Source: Frankia sp. AiPa1 (GTDB lineage: Bacteria > Actinomycetota > Actinomycetes > Frankiales > Frankiaceae). From it: a stretch of DNA of 64,000 nt. The stretch spans positions 1 to 64,000 of the forward strand of contig NZ_JALKFZ020000186.1 of the NCBI RefSeq assembly GCF_023243075.1, given 5' to 3'. Position 1 is the stretch's first letter; each line of letters opens with the position of its first letter. Below, piece after piece: positions 12,299-18,990 of the stretch. The notes under the pieces are model-generated. The model made no database searches. It saw only the letters and a program-made list of their open reading frames with translations, and was not told the origin of the DNA. Position numbers and translations under genes: made by a program.

Positions 12299-14017
12299 GT
12301 GCCTCTCACTCCGAGCGGGTTCGCCGCATCGACGTCCCGGCGTCGTGGCCGGGGCAGGCGGCGGGCAGTCATCGCCGCGGTGGTGGTGGTCGTGCTGGCC
12401 GCGGCGAGCGGGGTCGGCTACGTCCTGAAGAACCGGGCGGACGACCGGGCCGCGGACAAGAAGGTCCGCACCGCGGCGGGGGCGTACCTCGCAGCCTGGC
12501 GGACGATGACCACCACCGGCGGGACCGGCGCTGGCAGTGACCAGGCCGGCCGGGCGGCGGTGACCGCGGCGACGGTGGCGGGCAGCGCGAGTGTGCCGGC
12601 TCTGCTCGCCACGATGGCCGAGGTGCGGGACAAGCTGCTGGTCACGGGGGCGACCTTCACACCGGGGTCGATCAGCCGGCATGGGTCCGCGGCCACCGCG
12701 CCGTATGTCGCGAAGCTCGACCTGTCGGGCCTGCCCGGACCGCTGGAGTACGCGGGCGTGCTGAACCTGGTCTCCGCCGACCATGGCTGGAAGGTGCGCG
12801 CGGAGCTGCCGTCCGTCCACCCGGCGCTGCGGGCGGGGCTGCACCTGGACCGCACCACGTCCACCGGTCACCGTGGTGACCTGCTGACCGCGGCCGGCCA
12901 GCCGCTGCGTGAGTCCGGCGACCTGGCCAGCAACCTGGTGGGCCGGACCGATGCGCTGTCCGGCCTGGAACGGGTCTACGACAGCCAGCTGCGCGCTCGG
13001 GGCGGCGCGGTCGTGGTGCGCAACGCCCAGGACAAGGCGGTGCAGACCCTGCGCACCTATCCGATGACCGACGGACAGCCCGTGCGGACCACCCTGGACC
13101 TGCGGGTCCAGCAGGCGGCGGAGCAGGCACTGGCCACGGCGGCCCGCCCGACGGCGGCGATGGTCGCCATCGACACCCGCACCGGCGGCATCCTGGCGCT
13201 GGCGAACCACCCGCCGACCGGGGCGAGCCGGGCCGTGCGCGGCAAGTACCCGCCTGGGTCCACTTTCAAGATCGTGACGGCGACGGCGGCGCTGATGAGC
13301 GGGAAGGCCGCGAACACGCCGCTGGACTGCACCCAGTCCGTCACCGTCGACGGACGGACGTTCCAGAACGCCGAGGCCGAGCAGTTCGGCGCGATCCCAC
13401 TGCGTACCGCGTTCGCGAAGAGCTGCAACACCGCGTTCATCCGGCTGGAGGAGTCGCTGCCCGCGGGGGCGCTCGCGAAGGCCGCCGCGCTCTACGGCTT
13501 CGACGGCAGCTCGCCGCTGGACATCGCAAGCTTCGGTGGGACGTTCCCCACCCCGCGCGACGGTGCGGAGGCCGCGTCGGCGGCCATCGGCCAGGGCCGG
13601 ATCGAGGCCTCGCCGCTGCAGATGGCGAGCGTCGCCGCGGCCGTGGCCAGCGGAACCTGGCGCCAGCCGTTCGTCTCCGGGCAGCCGGCGCGCAGCAACG
13701 CCATCCCGACGAACGTGCTCGGGCCGCTGCGCGACTTCATGCGCGCCGTGGTCACCGAGGGCACGGCCGCGTCCGTCCCGATGCCCGGCGAGGTCTACGG
13801 CAAGACCGGGACCGCCGAGTACGCCGACGGCAATCCGCCGCCCACGCATGCCTGGTTCGTCGGCTACCGCGGTGACGTCGCCTTCGCGGTCGTGGTCGAG
13901 GACGGCGGCTTCGGCGCGGACACGGCCGCCCCGGTCGCCGCCCGTTTCCTCACCGCGCTCGACGGCGGCCAGGTTGCCGCCCCGGCCCCCGCGACGTCCG
14001 CCTCCACAGGGCGCTGA
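12299..14017 (+). CDS. Class B penicillin-binding protein with NTF2-like (MecA_N-type) domain
   Basis: Predicted D,D-transpeptidase that cross-links peptidoglycan outside the membrane. About 572 residues: basic N-terminus, one signal-anchor helix (about 22-42), an NTF2-like domain (about 55-165, AGAYLAAWRT ... GWKVRAELP), a dimerisation region and the transpeptidase domain. All three active-site motifs are present: STFK with the nucleophile near residue 321, SCN near 375 and KTGT near 502. GTG 12299 is supported by GAGGGGAGGG ten bases upstream. No transglycosylase domain. The NTF2 domain resembles that of MecA and some sporulation PBPs; role in vegetative growth, septation or sporulation cannot be told. 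Confidence 0.9.
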   Translation: MPLTPSGFAASTSRRRGRGRRRAVIAAVVVVVLAAASGVGYVLKNRADDRAADKKVRTAAGAYLAAWRTMTTTGGTGAGSDQAGRAAVTAATVAGSASVPALLATMAEVRDKLLVTGATFTPGSISRHGSAATAPYVAKLDLSGLPGPLEYAGVLNLVSADHGWKVRAELPSVHPALRAGLHLDRTTSTGHRGDLLTAAGQPLRESGDLASNLVGRTDALSGLERVYDSQLRARGGAVVVRNAQDKAVQTLRTYPMTDGQPVRTTLDLRVQQAAEQALATAARPTAAMVAIDTRTGGILALANHPPTGASRAVRGKYPPGSTFKIVTATAALMSGKAANTPLDCTQSVTVDGRTFQNAEAEQFGAIPLRTAFAKSCNTAFIRLEESLPAGALAKAAALYGFDGSSPLDIASFGGTFPTPRDGAEAASAAIGQGRIEASPLQMASVAAAVASGTWRQPFVSGQPARSNAIPTNVLGPLRDFMRAVVTEGTAASVPMPGEVYGKTGTAEYADGNPPPTHAWFVGYRGDVAFAVVVEDGGFGADTAAPVAARFLTALDGGQVAAPAPATSASTGR

Positions 14018-14095
14018 CCTGCGGTCCTCGGGATGGGCCCGACCGGGCGACGGGCCGGGCGGACAGGTGCCACGCGGGCCGGGGCGCGGCGTCGC

Positions 14096-14124
14096 TTGAC
14101 GTAGGGCGGGAACTCCGGCACCGT
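14096..14124 (+). promoter_or_regulatory. Promoter of ilvBNC leader
   Basis: TTGACG at 14096-14101, 17-base spacer, then CACCGT at 14119-14124 (A2 and T6 kept of TAnnnT). The first possible transcribed base falls on or next to GTG 14131, so the leader peptide would be made from a leaderless transcript. Predicted from sequence only. Confidence 0.5.
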
Positions 14125-14130
14125 GGATCC

Positions 14131-14169
14131 GTGCACATCCTGCTTCTTGTACGCCCAGAGCGCTCGTAG
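14131..14169 (+). CDS. ilvB leader peptide (12 residues)
   Basis: GTG followed by codons for His-Ile-Leu-Leu-Leu-Val-Arg-Pro-Glu-Arg-Ser and TAG. Five consecutive branched-chain residues (Ile, three Leu, Val) in a 12-residue frame directly in front of a terminator hairpin and the ilvB gene are the hallmark of transcription attenuation, known for ilvB operons of other actinobacteria. When charged Ile, Leu or Val tRNA is short, ribosomes would stall on these codons and the terminator would not form. Confidence 0.8.
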   Translation: MHILLLVRPERS

Positions 14170-14193
14170 TCGACGACCTCGACTCCGTGCGCC

Positions 14194-14226
14194 GCCCCTC
14201 AGTGCCCTAGGCACGAGGGGCTTTTT
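14194..14226 (+). terminator. Attenuator hairpin of the ilvBNC leader
   Basis: Stem GCCCCTC(a)GTGCC / GGCACGAGGGGC with a three-base CTA loop, followed by five T (14222-14226). It is the only intrinsic terminator with a clear T run that I found in the window, and it sits 25 bases after the leader peptide stop and about 100 bases before ilvB. Confidence 0.85.
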
Positions 14227-14329
14227 CGTGCCCGGCGGGGTTCGTACCCCATATTGCCGCCTCCGGACGCGAGATCCGTAGTCGCCGATTCGTTCTCGCC
14301 AGAGCCCAGGCCTCAAGGAAGACGCCCAG

Positions 14330-16117
14330 ATGACACGAGAGATCACCGGAGCCCAGTCGCTCGTCCACTCACTCGAGGCGGTCGGAGCCGAGGTGGTCTT
14401 CGGTATTCCGGGCGGCGCGATCCTGCCCGCCTACGACCCGCTGTTCGACTCGACGCGGGTGCGCCACATCCTCGTCCGCCACGAGCAGGGCGCCGGGCAC
14501 GCCGCCGAGGGGTACGCCCAGGCCACCGGACGGGTCGGGGTCTGCATGGCGACGTCCGGTCCGGGCGCGACGAACCTGGTCACCCCGATCGCCGACGCCT
14601 ACATGGACTCGGTGCCGATGGTCGCCATCACGGGGCAGGTCGCCAGCGCCGCCATCGGTACCGACGCCTTCCAGGAAGCGGACATCTGCGGCATCACGCT
14701 GCCGATCACCAAGCACAACTTCCTCGTCCAGTCGGCCGACGACATCCCCCGCACGATCGCCGAGGCGTTCCACCTGGCCGGTACCGGCCGGCCGGGCCCG
14801 GTGCTCGTCGACCTGCCCAAGGACATCCTGCAGTCGGTCACCCGGGTGCTGCCGCACGAGGTCTGGCCGCCGGTGCTGAACCTGCCCGGCTACCGTCCGG
14901 TGACCCGTCCGCACGCCAAGCAGGTGCGCGAGGCGGCCAAGCTGATCAGTGCCAGTCGCCGGCCGGTGCTCTACGTCGGCGGTGGTGTGCTCAAGGCCCG
15001 GGCGGCGGCGCAGCTGCGGACACTGGCCGAGATGACCGGCATCCCGGTCGTCACCACGCTGATGGCCCGCGGCGCGTTCCCCGACTCCCACCCGCAGCAC
15101 CTGGGCATGCCGGGGATGCACGGCTCGGTCGCCGCGGTCACGGCGCTGCAGAAGGCCGACCTGCTCATCACACTCGGCGCCCGCTTCGACGATCGGGTGA
15201 CCGGCCGGCTGGCGTCGTTCGCGCCGAAGGCCGCCATCATCCACGCCGACATCGATCCGGCGGAGATCGGCAAGAACCGCACCGCCGACGTGCCGATCGT
15301 CGGCGACTGCCGCGAAGTGATCAACGAGCTGATCTCGGCGCTGGTCGCCGAGCCGCGCCCGGACATCGAGGCCTGGTGGCGGGCTCTGGACGGCTGGCGG
15401 CGCAGGTACCCGCCGGGCTACGACACGCCGGCCGACGGCTCGCTCGCCCCGCAGCACGTCATCGAGCGCCTCGGCCAGATCTGCGGTCCGGAGACGATCT
15501 TCGCGGCGGGCGTCGGTCAGCACCAGATGTGGGCGGCCCAGTTCATCTCCTACGAGAACCCCTATACCTGGCTCAACTCCGGCGGCGCCGGGACGATGGG
15601 CTACGCCGTGCCAGCCGCGATGGGCGCCAAGGTCGGCCGTCCGGACGCCACCGTCTGGGCGATCGACGGCGACGGCTGTTTCCAGATGACCAACCAGGAG
15701 CTCGCCACCTGTGCGCTGGAGGGCATCCCGATCAAGGTGGCGATCATCAACAACGGCTCGCTCGGCATGGTTCGCCAGTGGCAGACCCTGTTCTACGATC
15801 AGCGGTACTCCAACACCGAGCTCGGCACGCACCCCGCGTCGCCGCGCACCGGGGTCAAGCGGGTGCCGGACTTCGTCCGCCTCGCCGAGGCGCTGGGCGG
15901 AGTGGGGCTGCGCTGCGAGTCCGCCGCCGAGGTCGACGAGACCATCGAGAAGGCCATGGCGATCGACGACGCCCCGGTCGTCGTCGACTTCGTCGTCCAT
16001 CCGGACGCGATGGTCTGGCCGATGGTCGCCGCCGGCGCGAGCAACGACGACATCCGGGTCGCGCGTGACCTCGCGCCCGACTTCGACTACTCCGGCGATG
16101 CCGAGGTGAACCTGTGA
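14330..16117 (+). CDS. ilvB: Acetolactate synthase large (catalytic) subunit
   Basis: 595 residues. TPP- and FAD-dependent enzyme that condenses pyruvate with pyruvate or 2-oxobutyrate, first common step of valine, leucine and isoleucine synthesis. Seen: [13 protein letters not shown], the TPP-activating glutamate in [13 protein letters not shown] (about residue 52), [18 protein letters not shown], and the TPP/Mg motif [14 protein letters not shown] ... INN (about 444-473). ATG 14330 has AAGGAAG nine bases upstream. The stop overlaps the GTG of ilvN. Controlled by the leader peptide and attenuator just upstream. Confidence 0.97.
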
Positions 16118-16641
16118 GGACCACCCACACGTTGTCCGTGCTGGTGGAGAACCGGCCGGGGGTGCTGGCCCGGGTCTCGGGCCTGTTCTCCCGGCGCGGG
16201 TTCAACATCGAGTCGCTGGCGGTCGGGCCGACCGAGCAGGCCGACGTCTCCCGGATGACGATCGTCGTCGCCGTCGACGACCTGCCGCTCGAGCAGGTGA
16301 CCAAGCAGCTCAACAAGCTGGTCAACGTGCTGAAGATCGTCGAGATGGACACGTCCGTCTCGGTGCAGCGGGAGCTGCTGCTGGTCAAGGTGCGGGCCGA
16401 TCTCGCCGTGCGCTCCCAGGTGCTGGAGACGGTCGCGCTGTTCCGGGCCAAGGTGGTCGACGTCGCCCAGGACGCGGTCACCATCGAGGCCACCGGCACC
16501 CGCGACAAGCTGGACGCGCTGATCCGGATGCTTGAGCCGTTCGGCATCCGGGAGCTGGTCCAGTCCGGCATGGTGGCTCTCGGCCGAGGCTCGCGTTCGA
16601 TCACCGATCGCAGCCTGCGCGCCGTCGAGCGGTCGGCCTGA
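16114..16641 (+). CDS. ilvN: Acetolactate synthase small (regulatory) subunit
   Basis: 175 residues. Binds and activates IlvB and confers feedback inhibition by valine. Seen: N-terminal ACT domain ([26 protein letters not shown]) and the C-terminal regulatory domain ([11 protein letters not shown] ... [14 protein letters not shown]). GTG start overlaps the ilvB stop by four bases, giving a stoichiometric, coupled pair. Confidence 0.97.
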
Positions 16642-16699
16642 CCTGCCGCTTTCCGCCAGAATGACCGCTTTTCCCACTACCAGAAGAGAGACCCCCACG

Positions 16700-17692
16700 A
16701 TGGTCGAGATCTACTACGACGACGACGCCTCGCTGGACGTGCTGGCCGACCGCAAGGTCGCCATCATCGGCTACGGCAGCCAGGGCCACGCGCACGCGCT
16801 GAACCTGCGCGACTCCGGCGTCGACGTGCGGGTCGGCCTGCCCGCCGAGAGTCGCAGCCGGCAGAAGGCGAGCGAGGCGGGCCTGCGGGTGCTCACTCCG
16901 GCCGAGGCCTCCGCCGAGGCCGACATCATCATGCTGCTCACCCCGGACACCACCCACCGCAAGATCTACGCCGAGTCGATCGCTCCGCACCTGTCCGAGG
17001 GCAAGGCGCTGGCATTCGGCCACGGCTTCAACATCCGCTACAACCTGATCGAGCCGCCGGCCGGCGTCGACGTGTTCATGGTCGCGCCCAAGGGCCCCGG
17101 CCACCTGGTCCGACGGGTGTTCGAGGAGGGCAAGGGCGTGCCCGTCCTCGTCGCCGTCGAGAACGACGCCTCCGGCAAGGCGCTGGCCGTCGCGCTCGCC
17201 TACGCCAAGGGCATCGGGGGCACCCGCGCCGGCGCGCTGCGCACGACCTTCACCGAGGAGACCGAGACCGACCTGTTCGGCGAGCAGGCCGTGCTCTGCG
17301 GCGGTGCCTCGGCGCTCGTCCAGGCCGGGTTCGAGACGCTCGTCGAGGCCGGTTACACCCCCGAGGTCGCGTACTTCGAGTGTCTGCACGAGCTCAAGCT
17401 CATCGTCGACCTGATGTACGAGGGCGGTATCTCCGAGATGCGTTACTCGATCTCCGACACCGCCGAGTACGGCGACGTCACCCGCGGGCCGCGGGTCGTC
17501 ACCCCCGCGGTGAAGGCCGAGATGCGCAAGATCCTCGAGGAGATCCAGGACGGCACCTTCGCCCGTGAGTGGGTCGCCGAGGACGACAACGGCCGGCAGA
17601 ACTTCACCAAACTGGTCGAGGAGGGCAAGCAGCACCCGATCGAGCAGGTCGGTGCCCGTCTGCGCCCACTGATGTCCTGGATCGCCAAGTAG
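16700..17692 (+). CDS. ilvC: Ketol-acid reductoisomerase
   Basis: 330 residues, class I short form. NADPH- and Mg-dependent isomerisation and reduction of acetolactate or acetohydroxybutyrate. Seen: dinucleotide motif [17 protein letters not shown] (about 24-40), VAPKGPGH, the Mg-binding [16 protein letters not shown] and the helix [19 protein letters not shown] 16700 lies 58 bases after ilvN, with AAGAGAGA upstream. It probably belongs to the ilvBN transcript. In many actinobacteria serA follows; here a septum-formation-like protein gene follows instead. Confidence 0.97.
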
Positions 17693-18948: not shown

Positions 18949-18990
18949 ATGCGTGCGCTCCTTCTCCTTAGCCGCCGCGGCGGGGCCTGA
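18949..18990 (+). CDS. leuA leader peptide (13 residues, four leucines)
   Basis: ATG then Arg-Ala-Leu-Leu-Leu-Leu-Ser-Arg-Arg-Gly-Gly-Ala and TGA. Four leucine codons in a row (CTC CTT CTC CTT) in a 13-codon frame 75 bases upstream of leuA. Leucine-rich leaders before leuA are known or predicted in several actinobacteria. Ribosome stalling at these codons under leucine shortage would change folding of the RNA that contains the leuA ribosome-binding site. Confidence 0.78.
   Translation: MRALLLLSRRGGA

Follow-up and report, generated by a model that had tools for sequence, protein, structure and literature searches.

Attenuation through leaders rich in branched-chain amino acid (BCAA) codons has been described in several actinobacteria. 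In Streptomyces lividans, ilvBHC is preceded by IlvL, a leaderless peptide (MRTRILVLGKRVG) containing isoleucine, leucine and valine codons, together with hairpins and a U-rich stretch ahead of ilvB (PMC8079986). The ilvBNC attenuator, or ilvB-II motif, of Corynebacterium glutamicum has a near-leaderless uORF, a terminator before ilvB and an antiterminator hairpin bordering that terminator (PMC11857589; PMC10272879). Its transcription start site (TSS) lies one nucleotide from the leader start, a trinucleotide at the boundary belongs to antiterminator and terminator alike, a Val-to-Ala change in the leader abolishes the valine response, and mutations in the terminator lift expression 7-8 fold (PMC11857589). 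In Mycobacterium tuberculosis, ilvB1 is induced by BCAA depletion, and its ilvB1NC attenuator combines a Rho-independent terminator with a BCAA uORF (LVVI) that was tested by codon replacement, the change of LVVI to AAAA abolishing induction (PMC13236596). Earlier comparative work on Corynebacterium, Mycobacterium and Streptomyces likewise predicted BCAA leaders and terminators before actinobacterial ilvB genes and makes no mention of Frankia or of leaderless starts (Seliverstov et al., 2005; PMC1262725). As relayed in that paper, changes to the candidate codons of the Streptomyces coelicolor ilvB leader were without effect (PMC1262725), a result that counts against a simple attenuator reading.

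Here, we analyse the leader of ilvBNC in Frankia sp. AiPa1, using a stretch of 64,000 nucleotides that we refer to as the window. The operon lies on the forward strand and comprises ilvB, the acetolactate synthase large subunit (14330-16117, starting with ATG at 14330; NCBIfam NF005860, 1099 bits), ilvN, the small subunit (16114-16641; NF008864, 227 bits), and ilvC, ketol-acid reductoisomerase (16694-17692; NF004017, 557 bits). Judging from its sequence and conservation, the leader at 14131-14226 very probably acts as a ribosome-mediated transcription attenuator of these genes. It belongs to the known actinobacterial IlvL-type kind, and the precedent for BCAA-leader attenuation invoked in a preliminary description of the locus exists in the organisms above, with the leaderless start itself already reported for S. 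lividans (PMC8079986). The parts worth following are the abutting geometry of its two hairpins and a set of sister leaders whose codons match the genes that they precede.

Promoter, start codon and sensor codons

The promoter of the window leader consists of a -35 hexamer, TTGACG (14096-14101, forward strand), and a -10 hexamer, CACCGT (14119-14124, forward strand; of the form NANNNT), which are separated by 17 nt, with 6 nt between CACCGT and the GTG at 14131. CACCGT is a weak sigma-70 match, and a promoter scanner at default settings did not report this -10. In the 64 kb of the window, both strands taken together, the combination of TTGAC, NANNNT and a start codon occurs three times and is associated with a short ORF only at the ilvB leader. 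We scanned the window together with 28 further ilvB loci of its family and one of its class, 30 in all, with the gap from the -10 to the start codon allowed to range over 4-9 nt. Each locus gave exactly one solution, always with 6 or 7 nt and always with a BCAA uORF. TTGAC was kept in every locus, and the arrangement TTGAC-17/18-NANNNT-6/7-[AG]TG, the BCAA uORF and the two hairpins described below were present in 30/30. The same layout, at 6-8 nt, was found in 54 of 79 further actinobacterial ilvB loci, two of which also score at 4 or 9 nt through a second solution; 18 of the 25 loci that lack it have record titles that place them in the Micrococcales. The distance from the -10 to the TSS averages 6.3 nt in S. 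lividans and is 5-7 nt in 88.7% of cases (PMC8079986), so the spacing seen here fits a leaderless start, as an agreement and not as proof. We infer that transcription starts at GTG 14131 or within one base of the start codon.

This GTG opens ilvL (14131-14169, forward strand), a uORF reading GTG CAC ATC CTG CTT CTT GTA CGC CCA GAG CGC TCG TAG, with its stop at 14167-14169. The encoded peptide, MHILLLVRPERS, is the 12-residue product noted in the preliminary description, and its Ile-Leu-Leu-Leu-Val run corresponds to the sensor codons ATC CTG CTT CTT GTA (14137-14151, forward strand), which occupy codons 3-7, directly after fMet-His. Such a run is rare by chance: the window has 403 short ORFs (8-20 aa, starting with ATG or GTG), and 4 of them have at least four BCAAs within five residues. 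The BCAA core and the TAG stop are kept in 29/29 family loci, and the core takes the form [IL]LVRxER[AV] in most of the 30 loci; IlvL of S. lividans differs in its flanking residues and stop. Family uORFs are 12, 17 or 22 codons long with frame and TAG retained, which indicates that insertions preserved the reading frame, and the spacing from stop to terminator is free to vary (30-50 nt across family loci). Mycobacterial leaders that we examined have uORFs longer than that of the window.

The choice of codons is also distinctive. Within the genes of the window, ATT makes up 1% of Ile codons, CTT 1.6% of Leu codons and GTA 1.4% of Val codons, placing all three among the rarest, and in the leaders of the family GTA accounts for 31 of 41 Val codons, CTT for 31 of 67 Leu codons and ATT for 18 of 28 Ile codons. 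The window shares with C. glutamicum the CUU and GUA codons that have been named conserved control codons in Corynebacterium (PMC11857589). Rare sensor codons of this kind would suit a device that reads tRNA charging.

Hairpin P1 and the intrinsic terminator

The RNA from 14131 to 14228 folds as two adjacent hairpins (z = -4.54; none of 200 shuffles was equal). The downstream one is, by sequence and fold, an intrinsic terminator (14194-14226, forward strand), in which a GC-rich stem at 14194-14221, starting 24 nt past the uORF stop, is followed by TTTTT at 14222-14226. Its pairs are kept in 98% of cells across 25 aligned sequences. The preliminary description had recognised this strong hairpin and its five T between the stop and ilvB, and had called it the only clear T-run terminator in 64 kb. 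This holds, given that just one of the four runs of at least five T on both window strands, that at 14222-14226, lies directly behind a strong GC stem; a terminator consensus scanner found only weak, chance-level sites elsewhere in the window. The 5' arm of the stem carries a single bulged A at 14201 (GCCCCTC-A-GTGCC), which all family members keep although the stem is otherwise paired almost throughout. The T run is immediately followed by CGTGCC (14227-14232), a sequence that is conserved in the family and beyond (as CGTGCC, AGTGCC or GTTGCC) and could pair with GGCACG of the terminator 3' arm.

The upstream hairpin, P1 (14160-14192, forward strand), was missed in the preliminary description. 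It spans the last uORF codons and the stop, ends one nucleotide before the terminator and is, in our proposal, the antiterminator. In the 25 aligned sequences, the basal helix of P1 and the terminator together form standard pairs in 97.3% of cells, compared with 95.7% when shuffled and 32-61% when slid, and cells changed on both sides number 8 compared with 2.5 in shuffles, a value that none of 500 shuffles reached. Most of this covariation belongs to P1, because the terminator hardly varies within the family. Alignment with relatives, as suggested when the locus was first described, finds conservation of the peptide, of the spacing from promoter to start codon and of both hairpins, the last with compensatory changes. 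The refuting condition named in that description, a lack of conservation of peptide or hairpin in relatives, thus does not hold, and its interpretation is supported.

In a wider set of 82 leaders, P1 contains 12.7 bp on average (7.3 in shuffles). In 81 of them its start lies 3-13 nt downstream of the base that opens the last sensor codon. Its end lies 0-2 nt before the terminator, also in 81 of the 82, an adjacency that is partly a folding bias, since shuffles reach 64%. The extent to which P1 draws on the terminator differs between groups. In the window, P1 uses no terminator bases and the hairpins abut with a 1-nt spacer, unlike the overlapping 'fast' attenuator of C. glutamicum with its common boundary nucleotides. 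Elsewhere in the genus of the window, the number of terminator bases used is zero in leaders L003-L005 and L008-L014, one in L006 and L007 and two in L019. In Streptomyces, P1 is longer (53-68 nt, compared with 33 in the window) and can take two terminator bases, and in most of the mycobacterial leaders examined it can take 3-5.

Ribosome position and competing explanations

Under the attenuation mechanism that we favour, transcription from GTG 14131, or from within a base of it, would let a ribosome initiate on leaderless RNA. With charged Ile-, Leu- and Val-tRNA in ample supply, the ribosome would reach TAG 14167 and cover the 5' arm of P1, whereupon the terminator at 14194-14226 would form and transcription would stop. 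During BCAA shortage, the ribosome would wait on ATC-CTG-CTT-CTT-GTA, and as long as it waits at one of the first four sensor codons P1 would be free to form directly against the terminator, allowing polymerase to read on into ilvBNC. We propose that a duplex positioned right at the terminator base may keep that base from closing in the exit channel.

The geometry of the leaders is consistent with such a dependence on ribosome position. If the ribosome is taken to cover the RNA up to 12 nt beyond the first A-site nucleotide, P1 is left free by a ribosome at the first sensor codon in 77 of the 82 leaders, by one at the last sensor codon in 2 and by one at the stop in 1; in the window, a ribosome at the stop occludes 20 nt of P1 (standard footprint). 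The upstream edge of P1 therefore roughly coincides with the downstream edge of a ribosome paused on the first sensor codon, and P1 abuts the terminator. Since complete formation of P1 would require a ribosome waiting among the early sensor codons, P1 is the natural candidate for the antiterminator, and we consider P1, abutting the terminator, to be the most likely competing structure. This agrees with the mutational results in C. glutamicum (PMC11857589) and M. tuberculosis (PMC13236596) described above. P1 is thus present, covaries and has the geometry expected of a ribosome-dependent element, yet thermodynamic folding indicates that it and the terminator can coexist in the window.

For C. 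glutamicum, mutational data back a proposed antiterminator that extends into the terminator base and shares a few nucleotides with it, so that the two hairpins exchange bases (PMC11857589), and our folds show that P1 can take 2-5 terminator-stem bases in Mycobacterium and Streptomyces and, within the family, in most of the other genera. For the window we regard a base-exchange switch of this type as unlikely, however, because P1 uses no terminator bases here and in nearly all of the genus, with a gain of 0-0.8 kcal/mol. P1 might instead be only a pause or anti-antiterminator hairpin, with another pairing serving as the true antiterminator in a trp-like manner. A role of this kind belongs to the 1:2 hairpin in the trp system. 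One of the three C. glutamicum hairpins is likewise an anti-antiterminator (PMC11857589). This explanation appears improbable for the window, as it has to contend with an avoidance of the pairing that it needs: with the ribosome at the first sensor codon, the classical antiterminator, in which the terminator 5' arm pairs with upstream RNA, falls below expectation (0.11 compared with 0.44 in shuffles). The competing structure that the preliminary description had hoped to find by folding is most likely P1, and not a partner of the terminator 5' arm. The sensor-codon stretch resembles that arm (UUCUYGUAC compared with CCCUCGUGC), and its pairing with either terminator arm or with P1 shows no clear excess among synonymous versions, which also speaks against P1 as a mere pause or anti-antiterminator hairpin. 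We further rejected a pairing of the sensor stretch with the terminator 3' arm, which synonymous versions favour only slightly (mean percentile 0.44) and which would have the wrong regulatory sign.

Two other explanations would dispense with a regulatory uORF altogether. A penicillin-binding-protein gene in the same direction ends at 14017, about 175 nt upstream, and the hairpin could be its plain 3'-end terminator with the uORF incidental; a conserved promoter and uORF lie between that gene and the hairpin, however, and the element accompanies ilvB in 33/35 family genomes as well as in distant actinobacteria, leaving this idea with very little to recommend it. A ligand-binding riboswitch is scarcely credible either. 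ppGpp riboswitches do occur before some ilvB genes (PMC10272879), but a search of 13950-14400 against Rfam gave neither a riboswitch nor a T-box and nothing else credible even at E = 5 (one unrelated chance match), and in the window as a whole only tRNAs pass the gathering threshold. Moreover, the loops are free to vary and conservation tracks the codons and the frame, as expected of the translated leader that we favour.

Distribution and sister leaders

A covariance model, R1, built on the 25 aligned sequences (24 from the family of the window and one class-level) was tested on 35 family genomes. In 33 of them it gave a single strong match, located at ilvB; the two genomes without one also lack a close ilvB match. 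Within the class, R1 matches 92 of 148 genomes at E <= 0.001, not all of them at ilvB, and among distant actinobacteria it finds 23 of 23 ilvB leaders outside the training set, from Streptomyces to Mycobacterium, at E < 0.01.

Weak second matches of R1 are similarly built leaders that precede ilvA and leuS. Those before ilvA have leaderless uORFs, occur in 28 of 30 family loci, among them that of this genome, and mostly end in MAIT, MVIT, MGIT or MIIN followed by the stop. The ilvA leader of this genome (L200; G000:C110:141909-141994, minus strand) has the uORF MTVQQMAIT, followed by P1 and a terminator, and a leuS leader in a second genome (L126; G003:C1:5485060-5485137) has MRFSLLLTWPR, likewise with P1 and a terminator, and is comparable to LeuL2 of S. 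lividans, where a leuS leader is known (PMC8079986). A second covariance model, built on the ilvA leaders, found cimA and leuA leaders in other families (L210-L228, at about position 1500). Several actinobacterial families other than that of the window have, in front of citramalate synthase (cimA), uORFs such as MTLHLIIT that carry Ile-Ile codons, and one has a Leu-codon version, MTNLLLT, in front of leuA (L213). All 16 matches of the ilvA-based model that we examined singly have a -10-like NANNNT 6-8 nt before the start codon. Downstream proteins were checked against NCBIfam for one cimA, one leuA, one ilvA and one leuS and otherwise recognised by sequence signature; for the ilvA (divergent) and leuS (partial) pieces the best match was the right one, yet below the curated cut-off. 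Viral contigs scanned with IlvA yielded nothing of use, and our literature search, itself incomplete, found no published ilvA or cimA attenuator of the leaderless-uORF and P1 kind.

The window also holds a second near-leaderless leader ORF, MRALLLLSRRGGA followed by a stop (18949-18990), which begins 9 nt after TAGTGT, upstream of leuA (about 19066). All 12 loci that we examined conserve its motif, M[RCH]ALLLLSRRG[GE]A, and like the published LEU element it has no T-run terminator.

On the basis of these leaders we tentatively suggest a modular actinobacterial attenuator in which a leaderless uORF places its sensor codons just before P1, P1 lies directly against the terminator, and the codons are swapped according to the gene (Ile, Leu and Val for ilvB; Ile for ilvA and cimA; Leu for leuA and leuS). 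As part of the same tentative suggestion, P1 in the genus of the window may block termination without shared bases, by crowding the terminator base in the polymerase exit channel. The geometric rule, with the P1 start at the edge of the waiting ribosome and P1 abutting the terminator, is directly testable. The ilvA and cimA leaders are predicted to sense isoleucine, such that one RNA design would jointly govern ilvBNC and the entry steps of isoleucine synthesis. Finally, the distribution of these elements indicates that leaderless BCAA attenuation is the rule and not an oddity in this family, and that it is common in the class.
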